Shown here one piece after another: positions 2 through 9,462 of a stretch of 9,490 bases of DNA (positions are counted from its first letter, which is position 1; the number at the start of each line of letters is the position of its first letter). The position numbers and the translations under genes are program-made. The notes beneath the pieces are model-generated. The model did no database searches, was not told where the DNA came from, and saw nothing but the letters and a program-made list of their open reading frames with translations. This DNA comes from an uncultured Lysobacteraceae bacterium (GTDB lineage: Bacteria; Pseudomonadota; Gammaproteobacteria; Xanthomonadales; Rhodanobacteraceae): NCBI GenBank assembly GCA_946480705.1, contig CAMLLF010000098.1:1-9490 (forward strand), given 5' to 3'.

Positions 2-1960
2 GCCGACGAGATCCGCCAAGGCCGGCCGCAGGTCAATCTGTCGGAGAGCCTCGGGCGCGTGCCGGGCATCGTGGTGCAGAACCGCCAGAACTACGCGCAG
101 GACCTGCAGATCTCCTCGCGCGGCTTCGGCGCGCGCTCCACCTTCGGCGTGCGCGGCCTGCGCCTCTACGCCGACAGCGTGCCGGCGACGATGCCCGACG
201 GCCAGGGCCAGATCTCGCATTTCATGGCGTTCGCCGGCGAGCGCATCGAAGTGCTGCGCGGGCCGTTCTCGGCGCTCTACGGCAATTCCTCGGGCGGTGT
301 CGTGCAGCTCTTCAGCGCCGACGGCGACGGCGCGCCGCAGGCGCGGCTGCAGAGCGTCGCGGGGGGCTACGGCAGCCGCAGCCATGCCGCGAGCGTGCGC
401 GGCGGCGACGAGGCGTTGCGCTATCACGCGGCGGCGATGCGCAGCGAGAGCGACGGCTTCCGCCGGCACAGCGCCGCGCGCCGCGACGCGCTCAATCTGA
501 AACTGCGCGTCGCCGTCGGCGATTCGGGCCGCCTCGATTTCATCGCGAATCGCTTCGATGCGCCGGATGCGCAGGATCCGCTGGGCCTCACGCGCGCCGA
601 AATGCTCGCCGATCCGCGCGCGGCGACGCCGGTTGCCTTGCTCTACGACACGCGCAAGTCGGCGCTGCAGGAACAGCTCGGCGCGGTCTACGAGCAGGCG
701 TTCGGCGAAGCGCATGCGCTGCGTGCCATGGCCTATGCCGGCCGTCGCGACGTCGAGCAGTTTCTCTCGGTGCCGCGCGCGGCGCAGGCGAGTCCGACCA
801 GCGCCGGCGGCGTCGTCGATCTGACGAGCGACTACGGCGGCGGCGATCTGCGCTGGATCTGGCGTGGCGAGATCGCGCAGCGCGCGCTGACGCTCTCGAC
901 GGGCGTCGGCGTGGACACGCAGACGCAGCGGCGCCGCGGCTTCGAGAATTTCCTCGGCGACACGCTCGGCGTGCGCGGCGCGCTGCGGCGCGACGAGCGC
1001 AACACGGCACGCGCCGTCGATCGCTATCTGCAGGCGTCGTGGGCGCTCAAGGAACGCTGGTCGCTGCTGGCCGGCGCGCGGCGCAGCGCGATCCGCTACG
1101 AATCCGCCGACCGCTATGTGACTCCGGCGAATCCCGACGACGGCGGCCGGGCCGACTATGCGCAGACGACGCCGGTCGCCGGACTGAGTTTCGCGCCGCG
1201 CGCGAACGCGCGCGTCTACCTGTCGTTCGGCCGCGGTTTCGAGACGCCGACGTTCAACGAGCTGAGCTATCGCGCCGACGGCGCGGCCGGTCTCGCGTTC
1301 GACCTGAAGCCGGCGACGAGCCGCAACGGCGAACTCGGATTCAAGTGGCGCAGCGACGCCGGCGCCCGGATCGAGGCCGCGCTGTTTCGCGCCGATACCG
1401 ACGACGAACTCGCGGTCGCACGCAACGTCGGCGGCCGCAGCAGCTTTCGCAATGTCGGCCGCGCGCGGCGCGAAGGCGCGGAATTCACGGCGGTCGTGCC
1501 GCTGCGCGAGCATGGGCAGTGGCAGCTCGCCTACACGCGGCTGTCGGCGACGTTCCGCGACACGTTCCCGATCTGCACGGCCGCCGGCTGCACCTCGCCC
1601 GATATGCTCGTGCCCGCGGGCACGCGCATTCCGGGCACGGTGCGCGATCAGTTGGCGAGCCGGCTCGACTGGCGCCGCGGCGACTGGAACGCCGCGGCGC
1701 AGGTCGTCGCAGTCGGCGACACGAGCGTCAACGACCGCGGCAGCCAGCGCGCGCCGGGCTACGGCCTCGTCAATCTCGAACTCGGCCGGCGCTGGACGTC
1801 GCGCGCCGGCGTGCTGAGCGCGTTCGCGCGCATCGACAACGCATTCGACCGCCGCTACGTCGGTTCGGTCATCGTCAACGAAGGCAATGCGCGCTACTAC
1901 GAGCCCGGCCCCGACCGCACGCTGTCGGTCGGAGTGCGCTGGGATTCTTTTGCTCCGTAA
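2..1960 (+). CDS. pqqU: TonB-dependent receptor, YncD/PqqU type (5' truncated by window edge)
   Basis: Outer-membrane TonB-dependent receptor; 652 residues are visible and the frame is open from base 2, so the signal peptide, TonB box and start of the plug (about 60 residues by comparison with E. coli) lie off the window. The GTG at 59 is an internal valine, not the start. The match to E. coli YncD, now called PqqU, a receptor for pyrroloquinoline quinone, is recognised from memory along the whole length: NLSESLGRVPGIVVQNRQNY and IPATMPDGQGQ-like plug motifs, EVLRGPFSALYGNSSGGV, YVTPANPDDGG, RGFETPTFNELSYRADG, DTDDELAV, and GSVIVNEGNARYYEPGP near the C-terminus. A cysteine pair four residues apart (codons at 1574 and 1589) matches the pair in the corresponding loop of YncD and probably forms a disulfide in an extracellular loop. 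The protein ends shortly after the last beta strand (VGVRWDSFAP). Substrate is by homology only. It converges on the next gene with a 5-base gap, and no hairpin terminator is visible there. Confidence 0.93.
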   Translation, partial: ADEIRQGRPQVNLSESLGRVPGIVVQNRQNYAQDLQISSRGFGARSTFGVRGLRLYADSVPATMPDGQGQISHFMAFAGERIEVLRGPFSALYGNSSGGVVQLFSADGDGAPQARLQSVAGGYGSRSHAASVRGGDEALRYHAAAMRSESDGFRRHSAARRDALNLKLRVAVGDSGRLDFIANRFDAPDAQDPLGLTRAEMLADPRAATPVALLYDTRKSALQEQLGAVYEQAFGEAHALRAMAYAGRRDVEQFLSVPRAAQASPTSAGGVVDLTSDYGGGDLRWIWRGEIAQRALTLSTGVGVDTQTQRRRGFENFLGDTLGVRGALRRDERNTARAVDRYLQASWALKERWSLLAGARRSAIRYESADRYVTPANPDDGGRADYAQTTPVAGLSFAPRANARVYLSFGRGFETPTFNELSYRADGAAGLAFDLKPATSRNGELGFKWRSDAGARIEAALFRADTDDELAVARNVGGRSSFRNVGRARREGAEFTAVVPLREHGQWQLAYTRLSATFRDTFPICTAAGCTSPDMLVPAGTRIPGTVRDQLASRLDWRRGDWNAAAQVVAVGDTSVNDRGSQRAPGYGLVNLELGRRWTSRAGVLSAFARIDNAFDRRYVGSVIVNEGNARYYEPGPDRTLSVGVRWDSFAP

Positions 1961-1965
1961 AGAAT

Positions 1966-2388
1966 TCAGATTTCAAAGTTGCTCGCGAAGATCGCGTCGG
2001 GATCGATGATCGTGATGCTGCCGTTCATCGCGGCGTGATTGCCGCAGTTGTAATGCAGCGAATCCGGCGCGCTGGCCGGCACGACGAAGGTGATGTCCGT
2101 GTCGCCGGTCGCGCCGTTGTTCGTGACGCCCTTGTTGTAGCGCGAGCCGCTGCCGGTCGTGTTGATCGTGTTGATGTTGAACGGGTGCACGCCGGCGACG
2201 CCGGTCAGGTCGAACACGTAGGTGCGGCCGCGCTCGAGCGTCAGCGGCCGGTTCTGCATACCGTCGATGGTCCAGGCCGAGAAACTGCCGGCGCTGACCG
2301 CGAACGTGGTCGTGCCGCCCTTGGGGGCGGCGACGGCGGACAGCGGCAAGGCGAGCAGGGCGAAGGCGAGCAGGCGAAAGCGAGTCAT
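1966..2388 (-). CDS. Exported cupredoxin (type 1 copper) protein
   Basis: A 140-residue protein with a clear Sec signal peptide: basic MTRFR start, hydrophobic core to about residue 17, and AVA-type cleavage near residues 20-21. The mature part is a small cupredoxin-like beta sandwich. Probable type 1 copper ligands are His68 (GVHPFN), then Cys115, His118 and Met121 in HYNCGNHAAMNG, which is the usual order one His early and Cys-His-Met clustered near the end. The Cys-x2-His-x2-Met spacing is tighter than in plastocyanin. It is probably a periplasmic or secreted electron carrier or copper-binding protein; the redox partner is unknown. The C-terminus, DPDAIFASNFEI, extends beyond the cupredoxin fold and resembles a recurrent tail of secreted proteins in Xanthomonadales (recollection, not checked). 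The start is supported by GAGGAA seven bases upstream. Transcribed divergently from the helix-turn-helix/ATPase operon and convergently with the PqqU-type receptor. Confidence 0.88.
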   Translation of the reverse strand: MTRFRLLAFALLALPLSAVAAPKGGTTTFAVSAGSFSAWTIDGMQNRPLTLERGRTYVFDLTGVAGVHPFNINTINTTGSGSRYNKGVTNNGATGDTDITFVVPASAPDSLHYNCGNHAAMNGSITIIDPDAIFASNFEI

Positions 2389-2394
2389 CGGAAA

Positions 2395-2400
2395 TTCCTC
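2395..2400 (-). promoter_or_regulatory. Ribosome binding site of the cupredoxin gene
   Basis: On the minus strand the sequence reads GAGGAA-TTTCCG-ATG. This is a strong Shine-Dalgarno match at good spacing and fixes the start at 2388. Confidence 0.8.
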
Positions 2401-2478
2401 GTGGACGTGGTGAACGTGAGGGGTTCAGGGGAGTTCGAGCGTATTACGGCGTTTCGGCCCGAAAACGGGCACGCTGCA

Positions 2479-2497
2479 GCTTGACGGCGTGTCAAGC
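2479..2497. repeat. Perfect 7-5-7 inverted repeat, candidate operator
   Basis: GCTTGAC-GGCGT-GTCAAGC is a perfect inverted repeat with 7-base arms and a 5-base centre; half-site centres are 12 bases apart. It sits about 90 bases upstream of the cupredoxin start and about 135 upstream of the favoured helix-turn-helix gene start. Size and symmetry suit a dimeric regulator. The adjacent helix-turn-helix protein is an obvious candidate for autoregulation, which is inference. The arms also contain TTGACA (minus strand) and TTGACG (plus strand), resembling -35 elements, but no -10 stands at the right distance. Confidence 0.5.
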
Positions 2498-2505
2498 GCC
2501 GGCCG

Positions 2506-2526
2506 CGGACGCCGGACAAGCGTCCG
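2506..2526. repeat. Inverted repeat with competing fold
   Basis: CGGACGC-N7-GCGTCCG forms a 7-bp stem. An alternative overlapping stem, CCGGAC-AAGC-GTCCGG (2512-2527), is mutually exclusive with it. It lies in the divergent region just downstream of the 7-5-7 palindrome. It may be a second operator or a leader RNA structure, or simply a product of very high GC content. Confidence 0.3.
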
Positions 2527-2590
2527 GTTCCGGCGGCCGGCGCGAGTGCCGACAATGCGCGCCGCCGGCAGATCGGCGCGGAGGCAGACG

Positions 2591-2641
2591 GTGACGACAG
2601 GCGGCAGTGCGACGGCGGACAGCGGAGCCGGCCGTGTTTGA
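2591..2641 (+). other. Possible 16-codon leader ORF or frameshifted gene start
   Basis: GTG at 2591 follows a perfect GGAGG (2580-2584) by six bases, the best plus-strand Shine-Dalgarno in the region. The frame encodes MTTGGSATADSGAGRV and stops at TGA 2639-2641, overlapping the favoured GTG start of the next gene in another frame. It could be a translationally coupled leader peptide. It could also be the true N-terminus of the helix-turn-helix protein if a +1 shift, or an extra base in the sequence, occurs near 2636. It could be chance. No protein-level support is available. Confidence 0.25.
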
Positions 2642-3905
2642 CTTTCCTCCGGCGTTGCGTAGCGTGCGCGATCCCGAAGAACGCGCGGATGCGCCCATGT
2701 CCGAGGATTTCGCCGGCCTGCTGACCGTTTTCATGCGCCGCATCCGGGCGAGCGCCTCGGGCGTCGCGACCGAGATCGGCATGAGCCGCGAGGCGGTCAA
2801 CAACTGGCGCCACGGCCTGTCGCTGCCGAACCGCAAGCATCGCCACAGGCTCGTGGACTGCGCGCGCTACCTGCGGCTCAGCGAAGCGGAGACCGACCGG
2901 CTGCTCGCGAGCGCGGGTTTCGAACCGGAATATCCGGTCGGCGGTCACGCGCCGGGCCAGCCCTATGCCGACTACATCGCCACGCTGTTCGAGCGCCTGC
3001 AGCGGCTCGCGCCGTATCCGATCCTGATGCTCTTGAGCCAGGCGCATTGGGGCCAGCCGCCGTTTCGCGAAACGCTGCTCGCGACCGCGCGCCAGCGCTA
3101 CGGCGACGGCGCGGTGCTGCATGTGCGCCCGCCGCACAGCGCCGTGGCCGATTCGCGCGACTACTTCGCCGCGATCGGCGCGCAGTGCGGTTTCGCCGGC
3201 GTCGATTCGGATTTCGCGTTCGAGGCGGCGCTGGAGCGGCGTCTTGCGGCCGGCGAGCGCGTGTTCTGTCTCGTCAGCCGCTTCGAGCAGGGCGAGGCGC
3301 ACCTGCGCGAGGCGCTGGCCGGCATCCTGCGCGGCCTCAGCGAGATGTACAGCGGGAAACTGCATCTGCTGCTCTGCGGCGGCGAGGCGCTCGCCGAGCT
3401 CAAGTATCAGAGTGGAGACCTGTCTTTGTTGAATATCGCGAGCGTGGAGCATTGGCCCGATCCCGGCCCGGCCGAGCTGCGCGCGCTTGCCTGCCGCGAG
3501 CTGCCGCCGGCGCAGGTCGACGCCGCGCTGCTGGGCCGGCTCGAGATCGACTGCGGCGGCCATCCGGCCCTGATCGACGAAGCCCTGCGCTGGCATGCGG
3601 CGAATACTCCCTGGAGCGGTCCCCAACTCGCTGAGTGCCTCGCGGGCAGCGCGCGGTTGTGGGAAGGCTTCGTGCCGCTGCTCGGCGAGGCCGAGGCGCG
3701 CACGCGCATCGAGGGCTGGCTTGCACAGGCCGCGCTCGGGCGGGCTCAGCCCTATCTGATCGACCGGCTCCTGCGGCGCCTGTTCTGGGCCAACCTCGTG
3801 ACTGCGCGGCCCGGTGCCGACGGTCCGCAGCTGGAATGGCGCTGCGAGGCGGTGCGCCGCGCCGGCCGCCAGATCATCGCCGCGTGGAGCGACGCCGGCG
3901 CATGA
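2634..3905 (+). CDS. XRE-type helix-turn-helix protein with degenerate ATPase-like domain
   Basis: Probable DNA-binding signalling protein, 423 residues from GTG 2634 (GGAG six bases upstream) or 402 from ATG 2697, which lacks a good ribosome site but stands right before the conserved part; GTG 2607 is also open. Residues about 26-85 form an XRE/lambda-repressor-like helix-turn-helix (GVATEIGMSREAVNNWRHG, then LRLSEAETDRLLASAGFEP). Residues about 115-320 follow the layout of a STAND/AAA-type ATPase, but the P-loop position reads SQAHWGQP (residues 135-142) where the downstream partner has GGRQLGKT, and the Walker B position reads VSRFE (214-218) for IDEAD. ATP hydrolysis is therefore unlikely. 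A strand matching the partner's sensor region (KLHLLLCGGEAL) and a CGGHPALIDEAL motif follow. The C-terminus (about 363-415) resembles a winged helix. No transmembrane segment is seen. The stop overlaps the next start (ATGA), so the two proteins are probably made together and interact. No experimentally characterised homologue is recognised. Confidence 0.85.
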   Translation: MFDFPPALRSVRDPEERADAPMSEDFAGLLTVFMRRIRASASGVATEIGMSREAVNNWRHGLSLPNRKHRHRLVDCARYLRLSEAETDRLLASAGFEPEYPVGGHAPGQPYADYIATLFERLQRLAPYPILMLLSQAHWGQPPFRETLLATARQRYGDGAVLHVRPPHSAVADSRDYFAAIGAQCGFAGVDSDFAFEAALERRLAAGERVFCLVSRFEQGEAHLREALAGILRGLSEMYSGKLHLLLCGGEALAELKYQSGDLSLLNIASVEHWPDPGPAELRALACRELPPAQVDAALLGRLEIDCGGHPALIDEALRWHAANTPWSGPQLAECLAGSARLWEGFVPLLGEAEARTRIEGWLAQAALGRAQPYLIDRLLRRLFWANLVTARPGADGPQLEWRCEAVRRAGRQIIAAWSDAGA

Positions 3906-6043
3906 GTCCGGCGACGAAGACCTGGCTGCGGCGCGGCGCGATCGCCGCGGCGGCGCTGTTTCTCGGCACGGCACTGCTGCTGCCGCAATGGAATCCGCTG
4001 GCCGGCCGCTTCGTTGCGAGCCCCGAGAACATGGCCTGGATTGCGAACGGCTGGAGCGAGCTGCAGAACGCGCGGCTGCGCATCAACGAACAGGTGATGG
4101 ACACCGGCGAGTGGCCGACACGGCTCGACCGGCTCGACATCGAGCCGGCCGGCGAGATCTTCGAGCTGTCGCTGCGGCGCAACGAACTGGTCGGCACGCT
4201 GCGCGCGACGCCGCGCATCGACCGCAGCCTGCACGGTCTGAGCGTGGCCTATCGCTGGGATCCCCGCCAGCAGCTCTGGAGCTGCGCCGCCGGCGATCCG
4301 CCGATACCGGCGCGCTACCTGCCGCTGAACTGCCGCGCGGAAGAAGCTTCGGTGTTCGAGACCGCGCGCTGGCTCGTTGTCGTGCTCGTGCTCAGCGTGA
4401 TCGCGCTGATCGGCCTCGGCGCGCTACTGCTCTGGCGGCATCCGCTGATCGCGCCGATCCAGCGCGATCCGGCGCGCCTGCGGCGCACGCCGCTCGTGCA
4501 GCTGCCGCGCATCGATGCGACGCTGGGCTGGCTGCGCCGGCGCGACGCGACGCTGGCCGCGGCCGGCGTCGATGCGGCCGACTGGAGTGACGCGCTGCGC
4601 TATCCGCGGATGGGCGGCGCGGCGCAGTCCGCGGCGCTCGCGCTGCGCGTCGGTGCACGCAGCGCGCCGGCGACCGGCTGGGAACTGCCCGGCGAAGTCT
4701 ATGAGTGGACGTTTTCCAGCGAGATGCCGGTGTCGCTGGAGCGCTGCCTGATCTGGCTGCCGGGTGCGGGGCTCGACGGCGCCCAGCTCGTACGCCTGCT
4801 GCGGCCCCTGCAGAGCGGCGTGGACGTGCTGCTGGTGTTGCCGCCGTCGGCAGCGGCGGAAACGGCGCTGCGCGGACTCTGTGCCGACCGCACGAACCTG
4901 TTCGTCTGCATCGCGCAGGAGGCGCAGACCGCCTGGCTGCTCTCGCGCGACGCGCTGCCGGTGTTGCTGCGCACGATGGCGCGGCAGCTGCGGCTTTCGC
5001 GCATCTCGCCGTATCAGACGCGCGGCGGCATCGCGCGCGCGTCGTCGTTCTTCGGCCGCGAGAGCCTGCTTTCGCGCGTGGTGCAGCGCGAACCGTCGAA
5101 CTACCTGCTGATCGGCGGACGCCAGCTCGGCAAGACCAGCCTCATGAAGGCGATCGAGCGGCGCCTGCGCGAGCACCCGAATATCGCCTGCGTCTACGTC
5201 GTGCTGCGCGATCAGCGCCTGCTGCCGCGGCTCGCGGCGCAGTGCGGGCTGCCGCTCGATGCGGATCTCGAAACGATCGTCGCGTCGCTGCAGCGCCAGC
5301 ACGGCGGCAAGCGCCTGCTGCTGCTGATCGACGAGGCCGATCCGTTCTTTCGCGCCGACGCGGCGCGCGACTATGCCGAACTGTCGGCGATGCGCGCGCT
5401 CTCGGAAGAAGGGCGCTGCCATTTCCTGCTCGCCGGGTTCTGGGATCTCTATGCCGCGGCCGCGCTGGACTACCAGTCGCCGCTGCGCAATTTCGGCGAC
5501 GTCATCAGTGTCGGCGGGCTCGAAGTCGAGGCCTGCCGCGAACTCGCGACCGTGCCGCTCGCGGTGCTGAATCTGCGCTTCGCCGACGCCGCGCTGGTCG
5601 AGCGCATCGTCGAGCAAAGCGGGCGCCGCGCGAACCTCGTGGCGATCCTCTGCCAGGAATGCCTCGAGGCGCTGGACCGCGGCGGCAGCGTGGTCGAAGC
5701 GGCCGACGTCGAGCGCGCACTGGCCTCGCAGGCCGTGCTCGACGCGCTCGCGGGCTGGGGAAGGCTCAGTCACGACGAGCTGGCGTCGCGGCTCGATCGC
5801 ATCGTCGTCTACCGCGTGGCGGGGCAGGGCGGGACGCGTCTGGCCGACATGGTCGAGCTGCTGCGGCCGCATGCCGACATCGACGTCGAAACGCTGCGCC
5901 GTTCGTTCTCGCGGCTGCAGCTGGCCTATGTGCTGGAACGCGACGGCGAGCATTTCCGCTTCGCCGTGCCGCTGTTCGCACGCCAGTTCGAAGCGACCGA
6001 AATCCCCGTGCTGCTGGCCGAGGAACTGCGCCGCCTGCGCTGA
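3902..6043 (+). CDS. Membrane-anchored pilin-like/AAA-STAND ATPase
   Basis: A 713-residue predicted inner-membrane ATPase. The start ATG overlaps the upstream stop (ATGA); GGAG lies 12 bases upstream, so translational coupling is likely. Layout: short basic N-terminus; transmembrane helix about 12-28; a periplasmic domain about 40-146; transmembrane helix about 157-178 followed by basic residues, fitting the positive-inside rule; an alpha/beta region about 200-365; then a P-loop ATPase beginning at FFGRE (383-387). Walker A is GGRQLGKT (405-412), Walker B LLLLIDEAD (472-480), and a sensor-like strand is FLLAGFWDLY (508-517). The C-terminus (about 620-713) looks like a winged helix. The periplasmic domain resembles the globular part of type IV pilins: RINEQVMDTGEWP, GTLRATPRID, and especially LWSC-x15-CR with IPARYLPLNCR, including the cysteine pair (Cys128, Cys144) that forms the pilin disulfide loop. 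There is no prepilin peptidase site, so it should not be assembled into a pilus. The function is unknown; a sensor ATPase acting with the upstream helix-turn-helix protein is inference. Confidence 0.87.
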   Translation: MSPATKTWLRRGAIAAAALFLGTALLLPQWNPLAGRFVASPENMAWIANGWSELQNARLRINEQVMDTGEWPTRLDRLDIEPAGEIFELSLRRNELVGTLRATPRIDRSLHGLSVAYRWDPRQQLWSCAAGDPPIPARYLPLNCRAEEASVFETARWLVVVLVLSVIALIGLGALLLWRHPLIAPIQRDPARLRRTPLVQLPRIDATLGWLRRRDATLAAAGVDAADWSDALRYPRMGGAAQSAALALRVGARSAPATGWELPGEVYEWTFSSEMPVSLERCLIWLPGAGLDGAQLVRLLRPLQSGVDVLLVLPPSAAAETALRGLCADRTNLFVCIAQEAQTAWLLSRDALPVLLRTMARQLRLSRISPYQTRGGIARASSFFGRESLLSRVVQREPSNYLLIGGRQLGKTSLMKAIERRLREHPNIACVYVVLRDQRLLPRLAAQCGLPLDADLETIVASLQRQHGGKRLLLLIDEADPFFRADAARDYAELSAMRALSEEGRCHFLLAGFWDLYAAAALDYQSPLRNFGDVISVGGLEVEACRELATVPLAVLNLRFADAALVERIVEQSGRRANLVAILCQECLEALDRGGSVVEAADVERALASQAVLDALAGWGRLSHDELASRLDRIVVYRVAGQGGTRLADMVELLRPHADIDVETLRRSFSRLQLAYVLERDGEHFRFAVPLFARQFEATEIPVLLAEELRRLR

Positions 6044-6211: not shown

Positions 6212-8869
6212 ATGGCGGAACTAGCCAAAGAAGTCATACGCGTCAATATCGAAGACGAGATGCGGCAGAGCTACCTCGATTACGCCATGAGCGTGATCGT
6301 CGGCCGCGCCCTGCCGGACGTTCGCGACGGTCTGAAACCGGTGCATCGCCGCGTGCTGTTCGGCATGTACGAAGTCAACAACTTCTGGAATCGCCCGTAC
6401 GTCAAATGCGCCCGCATCGTCGGCGACGTCATGGGTAAATACCATCCGCACGGCGACTCCTCGATCTACGACACGCTCGTGCGCATGGCGCAGGACTTCT
6501 CGCTGCGCTATCCGCTGGTCGACGGCCAGGGCAACTTCGGTTCGATCGACGGCGACGCCGCCGCGGCGATGCGCTACACCGAATGCCGCCTCGACCGCAT
6601 CGCTTCCGAACTCACCGCGGACATCGACAAGGAAACCGTCGATTTCCAGCCGAACTACGACGAAAAGGAATTCGAGCCGACGGTCCTGCCGACGCGCGTT
6701 CCGAACCTGCTCGTCAACGGCTCCGCCGGCATCGCCGTCGGCATGGCGACGAACATTCCGCCGCACAATCTCACCGAAGTCATCGATGCGACGGTCGCGC
6801 TGATCGACGATCCGTCGCTCGGCATCGAAGACCTGATGCGCTTCGTCGTCGGTCCGGACTTCCCGACCGCCGGCATCATCAACGGCGCTTCCGGCATTGT
6901 GGAAGCGTATAGAACCGGGCGCGGCCGCATCCTGATCCGCGCCAAGACCGAGATCGAGACCGAAGCCAACGGCCGCGAGACGATCGTGGTCACCGAGCTG
7001 CCGTACCAGGTCAACAAGGCCCGCCTGATCGAGAAGATCGCCGAGCTGCACAAGGAAAAGAAGATCGAAGGCATCGCTCCCGACGGCCTGCGCGACGAGT
7101 CCGACAAGGACGGCATGCGCATCGTCATCGAAGTGCGCAAGGACACGATGGCCGACGTGCTGCTGAACAATCTGTTCCAGCAGACCCAGCTGCAGGTCAC
7201 CTTCGGCATCAACATGGTCGCGCTGGTCGACGGCCAGCCCCGTCTGCTGAGCCTCAAGGAAATCCTCGAGGCGTTCATCCGTCATCGCCGCGAAGTCGTC
7301 ACGCGGCGCACGATCTTCGAACTGCGCAAGGCGCGCGCCCGCGCGCACATCCTCGAAGGCCTGACCGTCGCGCTCGCGAACATCGACGAGATGATCGAGC
7401 TCATCAAGACGTCGGAATCGCCGCAGGTCGCGCGCGAGCGCATGCTGGCCAAGCGCTGGGAGCCGGGCCTCGTGCGCGCGCTGCTCGACGCCGCGGGCGC
7501 CGACGCGTCGCGTCCGGAAGATCTCGATCCGAACGCAGGACTGCGCGCGGACGGCTACCAGCTGTCCGAGGTGCAGGCGAAGGAAATCCTCGAGATGCGC
7601 CTGAACCGCCTGACCGGGCTGGAACAGGACAAGCTCACCGATGAATACAGGCAGCTGCTCACGGCGATCCAGGGTCTCATCGAGATCCTGTCCGATCCGG
7701 CCGTGCTGCTCGCGCTGATCCGCGGCGAACTCGTCGAGATCCGGGACGCCTACGGCGATGCGCGCCGCACGGTGATCCAGCACAGCCAGGAAGACCTCGA
7801 CGTGCTGGACCTGATCGAGCCCGAAGACGTCGTCGTCACGCTGTCGCACACCGGCTACGTGAAGCGCCAGCCGATCAGCACGTATCGCGCGCAGCGCCGC
7901 GGCGGCAAGGGCCGCTCGGCGACGGCGGTCAAGGAAGAAGACTTCGTCGCGCAGGTCTGGATCGTCAACACGCACGACACGCTGCTGACGTTCACGAGCG
8001 CGGGCCGCGTGTTCTGGCAGAAGGTCTACCAGATTCCCGACGCGGGCCCGAACTCGCGCGGCAAGCCGATCGTGAACCTGCTGCCGCTCGAACCGGACGA
8101 AAAGATCCAGGCCGTGCAGTCGGTGCGCGAATTCCCGGTGGACCGCTACGTGTTCTTCGCGACGCGCCAGGGCACGGTCAAGAAGACCTCGCTCGCCGAC
8201 TACTCGCGCCCGCGCACGAACGGCATCCGCGCGATCGATCTCGACGAAGGCGACGGCCTCGTCGGCGTCGCGCTGACCGACGGCACGCGCGATGTGCTGA
8301 TGTTCGCGTCCAACGGCAAGGCCGTGCGCTTCGCCGAGGACGAGGTGCGCCCGATGGGCCGCGTCGCTCACGGCGTGCGCGGCATGCGGCTGACCGACGG
8401 TGCCGAGGTCGTCTCGCTGATCGCCGTCGACGGCGAAGGCGACATCCTCACGGCGACCGAGCGCGGCTACGGCAAGCGCACGCCGCTGGAGGAATACCCG
8501 CGCAAGGGCCGCGGTACGCAGGGCGTCATCGCGATCCAGTGTTCGGGCCGCAACGGCGCGCTCGTGGCGGCGGTGCAGCTCGACGACGCGCACGAGCTCA
8601 TGCTCGTGTCGAACCAGGGCACGCTCGTGCGCACGCGCGCGGCCGAGATCGCGCGCGTCGGCCGCAACACGCAGGGCGTCACGCTGATCCGCCTGCCGGA
8701 CAGCGAGGCGCTGACGAGCGTGGTCGGTCTTGCCGCGATCGTCGGCGACGACGACGTCGACGCGGACGACGCGAGCGGCAGCGATGCGTCCGTCAGCCCG
8801 GCCGACGCACCGCCGGAAACACCGGCCGCGGACAGCGACGCATCGTCCGATGGTTCGCCGGTCGACTGA
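6212..8869 (+). CDS. gyrA: DNA gyrase subunit A
   Basis: The 885-residue GyrA subunit of DNA gyrase (A2B2 with GyrB), which breaks and rejoins DNA to introduce negative supercoils using ATP bound by GyrB. Length and sequence fit gammaproteobacterial GyrA throughout. The N-terminal breakage-reunion domain has [20 protein letters not shown], the catalytic tyrosine Tyr122 in AMRYTE, and the quinolone-resistance region [12 protein letters not shown]. Ser83 and Asp87, in E. coli numbering that coincides here, are the susceptible-type residues. The C-terminal beta-pinwheel starts near residue 540 and carries an intact GyrA box QRRGGKG at 561-567, needed for DNA wrapping. The last 40 residues (846-885) hold 13 acidic and no basic residues and look disordered, like the acidic tail that tunes supercoiling in E. 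coli. The ATG at 6212 starts the conserved [17 protein letters not shown] and has only a weak ribosome site. It has its own promoter and a strong terminator, so it is probably monocistronic. Confidence 0.98.
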
Positions 8870-8939: not shown

Positions 8940-9422
8940 TCAGGCACCGAGCGTGTCGAGCATGGCCTGCGCGCTGGAAACCTTGAATTCGCCGGGCGAT
9001 TCGACGTTCAGCGCCTTGACGACGCCGTCCTCGGCATACAGCGCGAAGCGCTTGGAGCGCACGCCCATGCCGAACGCGCTCGCGTCCATTTCGAGGCCGA
9101 GCGCGCGGGCGAGGTTCGCATTGCCGTCGGCCAGCATGATGAGCTGCTCGGGCACGTTCTGGTCCTGAGCCCAGGCCTTCATGACGTAGGCGTCGTTGAC
9201 CGCCATGCAGGCGACGTCGATGCCGCGACTGTGGAACTTTTCGAAGTTCTCCACATAGCCGGGAAGGTGCTTGGCCGAGCAGGTCGGGGTGAACGCACCC
9301 GGCACCGAGAACAGCACGACCTTGCGGCCGGCGAAGATCTCGTCCGTGCTGATGGCCTGGACGCCGTCCTTGAGCACGTTGAGCGTGGCCGACGGAATGC
9401 GGGTGCCGACGGAAATGGTCAT
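8940..9422 (-). CDS. Peroxiredoxin, Prx5/type II (glutaredoxin- or thioredoxin-dependent)
   Basis: A 160-residue cytoplasmic thiol peroxidase that reduces hydrogen peroxide and organic hydroperoxides. It has the Prx5 active-site signature PGAFTPTCSAKHLP with the peroxidatic Cys48, and a second cysteine, Cys72 (IDVACMAVND), matching the second cysteine of plant type II peroxiredoxins. The VNDAYVMKAWA motif, and SKRFALYAEDGVVKALNVE with the conserved arginine region, complete the family pattern. Length is normal and no glutaredoxin domain is fused. The start at 9422 (MTISVGTRIP) is chosen because GAGG lies six bases upstream and family members begin here. An in-frame ATG at 9461 overlaps the likely -10 element and would add 13 unconserved residues. 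The electron donor (glutaredoxin/glutathione or thioredoxin) is not shown by the sequence. Convergent with gyrA across a shared terminator. Confidence 0.94.
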   Translation of the reverse strand: MTISVGTRIPSATLNVLKDGVQAISTDEIFAGRKVVLFSVPGAFTPTCSAKHLPGYVENFEKFHSRGIDVACMAVNDAYVMKAWAQDQNVPEQLIMLADGNANLARALGLEMDASAFGMGVRSKRFALYAEDGVVKALNVESPGEFKVSSAQAMLDTLGA

Positions 9423-9428
9423 GCGAAA

Positions 9429-9432
9429 CCTC
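9429..9432 (-). promoter_or_regulatory. Ribosome binding site that fixes the peroxiredoxin start
   Basis: The minus strand reads GAGG-TTTCGC-ATG, supporting initiation at 9422 rather than at the in-frame ATG at 9461. Confidence 0.7.
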
Positions 9433-9456
9433 GTTGCGGGGTGGGCGGAGACAGCG

Positions 9457-9462
9457 ATCATA
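9457..9462 (-). promoter_or_regulatory. Candidate -10 element of the peroxiredoxin gene
   Basis: TATGAT on the minus strand differs from the consensus at one base and would start transcription near 9450, about 28 bases before the ATG. The -35 position (about 9480-9486) shows no good match, and the window ends soon after, so an upstream activator site cannot be judged. Confidence 0.45.

Follow-up and report, generated by a model that had tools for sequence, protein, structure and literature searches.

Type IVa pilins (PilA/PilE, PF00114) are built from a long helix, a four-stranded sheet and a cysteine-bounded end that runs from W-x-C to a final C. STAND NTPases convert from a closed, ADP-bound form into an oligomer that has bound ATP, and some, such as Avs3, are defence receptors. 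Pilin sensing by PilS-PilR and FimS-AlgR provides a precedent for a membrane protein that reads inner-membrane pilins (PMC5979040). Here we describe a gene that brings these elements together, in a 9,490-nucleotide stretch of DNA from an uncultured Lysobacteraceae bacterium (assembly GCA_946480705.1, contig CAMLLF010000098.1; the whole stretch is referred to as the window). Computational analysis of its product, hereafter the receptor, established a pilin-fold domain (as a model), flanking transmembrane (TM) helices, intact NTPase motifs and a constant upstream helix-turn-helix (HTH) partner. The receptor shares the helix, sheet and cysteine-bounded end of type IVa pilins; unlike them, it lacks an N-terminal prepilin motif and continues into a second TM helix and an ATPase. 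It has the NTPase core and motifs of STAND proteins, including archaeal relatives (2qen, 2fna) and the NLR and CED-4 cores, but is anchored in the membrane and carries its presumed sensor ahead of the NTPase, outside the cytoplasm. Like the pilin sensors described in PMC5979040, it is a membrane protein that could read inner-membrane pilins; those are two-component systems, whereas the receptor is a STAND NTPase with an HTH partner. We found no pilin-STAND fusion in the literature searched, which left most subscription journals outside, nor in text searches of PMC5979040, PMC7159879 and PMC8195603.

A preliminary description of this DNA had placed a pilin domain at positions 4022-4336 (residues 41-145) of a STAND/AAA ATPase, with a TM helix on either side. 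Fold and profile comparison, conservation and Pfam all back this assignment, and in the predicted structure residues ~37-146 form a pilin-fold domain; the structure and profile comparisons, examined for a different fold, favoured that of pilins. The sequence hallmarks are GEWP (residues 69-72), W-x-C (126-128) and IPARYLPLNCR (135-145). The excised domain matched PF00114 along profile positions 6-108 of 108 with an E value of 6.3e-4 and 21.1 bits, below the cutoff of 22. The full-length protein matched more weakly (E 0.043, 15.2 bits) and the homologue in locus L007 reached 23.8 bits. In 5 of 28 carrier genomes the receptor gene went undetected by the Pilin model, although matches up to E 10 were admitted. 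Alignment by hhalign to pilins from related genomes (15 rows, 9 distinct, one running into a wrong frame) gave a probability of 93.6 and a score of 42.4, compared to maxima of 13.6 for 100 column shuffles and 11.6 for 18 other windows of the same protein, and 10.5 for the reversed profile. Without the D-region the score dropped to 24.7 (probability 39.4), and the D-region end alone scored 30.4 (probability 87.8), indicating that the cysteine/YLP end supplies much of the sequence signal. When 5.8 billion proteins were searched for relatives of the domain that stand on their own, 262 candidates emerged, none at E <= 1, and a viral fold library yielded no rows at E <= 0.001.

We then examined conservation in a 119-row alignment of the window protein and 118 of its 120 listed relatives (the best 120 of 214 matches; P0005, 99% identical, and P0048, partial, were omitted). 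W71, P72, C128 and C144 are invariant in all 119 rows and in 85 of 85 rows less than 90% identical to each other, and G112, W126 and P141 are kept in 118, 114 and 112 rows, respectively. A 25-member domain set (the window and 24 loci) retains P72, W126, C128 and C144 in every member and W71 in 24. The cysteine pair singled out in the preliminary description is strictly conserved. The proposed YLP-x-CR ending held up for its cysteine; its string is looser, with Y at position 139 in 8 of 25 members and W in another 8, and P at position 141 in 21. The domain has a mean identity of 0.316 to the window protein, compared to 0.252 for TM2 and 0.681 for the NTPase.

The TM helices are largely retained alongside the cysteines: a hydropathy scan found exactly two TM stretches in 114 of the 119 sequences, and by charge count 114 fit an N-in/C-in arrangement. 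In the window protein TM1 falls under the scan threshold, but the full-length model has helices at residues 3-26 and 147-178. This topology would place the pilin domain on the periplasmic side. TM1 aligns to the pilin membrane helix, with P28 opposite pilin P22 and eight additional residues thereafter. In this alignment R10, conserved in 114 of 119 sequences, sits beside the position of pilin E5. Contact between R10 and E5 of a membrane pilin is no more than an idea, and the positive-inside rule would also explain the conservation of R10. No prepilin cleavage site with E5 was found at the N-terminus. A loose prepilin pattern, sought in the first 60 residues, occurred in 11 of 119 sequences, always at residues 46-51 and downstream of TM1, in agreement with the reported absence of the motif. 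Because TM2 and the ATPase follow and the N-terminal motif is missing, the receptor cannot be an ordinary filament subunit.

The ATPase core is of the STAND type and its NTPase motifs are intact. The Walker A string is identical in 24/24 loci, a strict Walker B pattern is present in 14/24, and D477, E478 and D480 are invariant across the 53 rows of alignment A1. No Pfam family scored above cutoff downstream of the core, and NCBIfam and PHROGs had no matches for the receptor or its HTH partner.

Beyond what had been described before, the receptor gene has a conserved upstream companion. A profile of the HTH protein detected this partner in 24 of 24 loci, each time immediately upstream of the receptor gene and in the same orientation, its last codon lying 87-141 bases ahead of the pilin domain; in the window its stop overlaps the receptor start (ATGA). 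Two loci in which the gene is split over two contigs (L005 and L008) were excluded from this count, and L008 does have the partner. Of three further loci, two have the partner as well, whereas the sequence of L098 begins inside the ATPase gene. The window copy matches no Pfam family at E <= 10; 9 of 10 partner relatives match HTH_3, all below cutoff (best 20.0 bits vs 23), and 3 of 10 match AAA_35. The P-loop pattern is missing from 24 of 25 partners (L060 has one), and each of the 25 has RFE at the Walker B position. Sequence databases contain 270 partner relatives at E <= 0.001, and the 120 listed include proteins from Tahibacter, Pseudomonas, Acidovorax, Delftia and Massilia; some sources name members of this family XRE-family. 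The interval that separates the HTH gene from the divergent small gene contains, at 2481-2495, the palindrome TTGACGGCGTGTCAA, TTGAC-N5-GTCAA, a candidate operator. The exact form occurs in the window and in 5 of 24 loci, each of them a closer one; a promoter scan of the stretch upstream of the HTH gene found none.

We consider it likely that the receptor and its HTH partner are a sensor-regulator pair, and as the best explanation we lean slightly toward a STAND-type membrane receptor with pilin as its likeliest ligand. In such a model, the periplasm-facing pilin domain would bind a ligand there, and binding would be relayed through TM2 to the NTPase. By analogy with the STAND family, the NTPase would give up its closed ADP state and form an oligomer with ATP bound; this oligomer could engage the HTH partner, with its similar core lacking a P-loop, and alter transcription. 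The favoured ligand would be pilin itself, as free inner-membrane subunits or as a reflection of pilus state. A domain that resembles pilins, carried on a membrane helix that does so too, would be in a good position to touch them, and PilS offers a precedent (PMC5979040). That a pilin or pilus is the input is plausible, at rather less than an even chance. The fuller picture, in which an inner-membrane pilin mimic probes the pool of pilins, or ligands carried by pili, and acts as a transcriptional switch via the STAND NTPase and the HTH partner with its dead ATPase-like core, is tentative and itself doubtful.

The same receptor layout could instead reuse the pilin fold for another periplasmic input, such as a peptide, glycan, DNA or envelope stress. 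This is a possibility to be taken seriously, if not a probable one: carrier genomes hold other anchored pilin-domain proteins without an evident filament role, and WD40 repeats occupy the domain's position in relatives, but the pilin end motif and the alignment of TM1 to the pilin helix exceed what a neutral scaffold would need. Convergence or a prediction artefact would account for near-threshold sequence scores (21.1 bits vs 22) and for a Foldseek search without any row at E <= 0.001. It would fit, too, with a PDB profile search in which pilins filled 8 of 15 rows at only E 0.085-0.23, below 5 Kelch rows that themselves lack any single significant stretch, and with the fact that only 10 of 25 separate domains match Pilin at E <= 0.1. 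We nevertheless consider an artefact very improbable.

We also weighed an anti-phage receptor, in which the pilin domain would be a decoy for the proteins of pilus-using phages and the STAND core would start defence. Known STAND defence receptors lend this some appeal (Avs3 is row 35 of the Foldseek list), as do three viral contigs (L105, L106 and L107) in which the receptor gene adjoins inovirus-like genes, with replication and Zot-like proteins matched in L105 and a Zot-like protein also in L107. However, a 28-base dif-like sequence, with 7-9 mismatches to an E. coli dif, lies beside the receptor gene in all three contigs and in L097, so that integration at this site can explain the inovirus neighbourhood. 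In L106 and L107 the match to L097 ends within the dif-like sequence; in L105 it stops 65 bases short of it. The receptor gene in L104/L107 lacks the pilin-domain-coding stretch and is in two pieces in different frames; the other two viral-contig copies are intact. Furthermore, PADLOC gave no full-length model match and only partial ones around the P-loop (HEC-01A, 1.8e-4 over 52 residues; PDC-S01, 0.089), the receptor had no matches in plasmid records (E 1e-20) or phage records (E 1e-5), and the partner resembles a regulator, not a killing effector. We therefore regard a defence role as improbable.

The receptor is present in 23 of 398 genomes of the order, in 1 of 274 in a class sample (the centre genome of this analysis itself) and in 8 of 398 in a phylum sample, centre genome included. 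Three of these 8 are distant: L101, a short match with no Pfam family, and L099 and L100, which encode a hydrophobic leader, WD40 repeats, one TM stretch and the NTPase. Like the receptor, L099 and L100 have an N-terminal external domain, a TM segment and a related NTPase (30-32% identity); unlike it, they have WD40 repeats and a single TM stretch after the leader. The preliminary description did not mention these relatives either, in which a WD40 sensor takes the place of the pilin domain. L100 lacks the Walker A pattern, and the HTH profile did not find the partner in the fetched L099 and L100 stretches at E <= 1e-3. A protein encoded beside the L099 relative may, as a guess, be CHAT-like.

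Co-occurrence with type IV pili was considered as a clue and set aside: PilM is present in 382 of 398 order genomes and in 22 of 23 carriers (G428 lacks it), and hence gives no discrimination. A Pilin match above cutoff occurs in 28 of 28 carrier genomes, a count that covers carriers alone; in G428 one of 4 such matches is the receptor itself. Receptor-carrying genomes also encode ~600-residue proteins with a C-terminal pilin domain and no evident filament role (13-1869 on the plus strand in L012, where PF00114 matches at 4.6e-18, and 1498-3318 on the minus strand in L016; also L013 and L020, by open frame). In L063 (4673-5449, +; E 1e-12) and L064 (5271-6017, -; E 1.3e-11) an anchored protein that starts with a hydrophobic stretch and ends in a pilin domain is encoded only a few genes away from the receptor gene and on the other strand. 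In L053 a GspH/FimT-type minor pilin gene (9700-10254, -; PF12019, 9.4e-13) is one small gene away from the receptor gene.

The features are listed in Table 1. Among the matches listed, the database protein nearest to the window ATPase shares 99% identity with it and carries a Tahibacter sp. label. Neither Rfam nor a tRNA scan gave any match in the window. Neighbours of the receptor gene differ among loci; they include a DUF3592-like family in 8 of 24 (2 scanned, one above cutoff) and, in 5 of 24, a membrane family that has no name (2 were scanned, without a Pfam match).

Table 1. Coordinates of the window features and of the WD40-containing relatives (the latter in their own loci).
Feature	Position	Strand	Remarks
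TonB-dependent receptor ORF (open reading frame)	59-1960	+	runs open at left window edge
Small protein	1966-2388	-	no Pfam match
HTH partner	2697-3905	+	402 residues; ATPase-like core without P-loop; HTH label taken from relatives
STAND-type NTPase (receptor)	3902-6043	+	713 residues; pilin-fold domain between two TM helices
TM1	3929-3985	+	residues ~10-28
Pilin-fold domain	4010-4339	+	residues ~37-146
Domain secondary structure			predicted: helix 41-68; strands 87-92, 95-100, 114-120, 125-130
W71-P72	4112-4117	+	after the long helix
Cys128 to Cys144	4283-4333	+	D-region-like loop; putative disulfide
TM2	4340-4435	+	model helix 147-178
Middle region	4442-5005	+	residues 181-368; contains helices and strands; without Pfam match
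STAND/AAA NTPase core	5006-5995	+	residues 369-698
Walker A	5114-5137	+	GGRQLGKT, residues 405-412
Walker B	5315-5341	+	LLLLIDEAD, residues 472-480
GyrA	6212-8869	+	
Redoxin-family protein	8940-9461	-	
WD40-TM-NTPase relative, L099	5106-7910	-	
WD40-TM-NTPase relative, L100	6450-9284	+	

In the receptor, the predicted pilin fold is built permanently into a signalling ATPase instead of serving as a filament subunit, and the presumed sensor of a STAND protein would face the periplasm. As the WD40 relatives suggest, NTPases of this branch may be able to exchange the sensor that they carry outside. As a pilin mimic, the receptor would represent a pilus-sensing route separate from histidine kinases and chemoreceptors, a proposal we hold loosely and think rather unlikely as it stands. 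The protein is probably a receptor, and it may report pilus-related events to gene control; if its ligand is pilin, it would offer a compact genetic system in environmental bacteria for studying how cells read pilus state.
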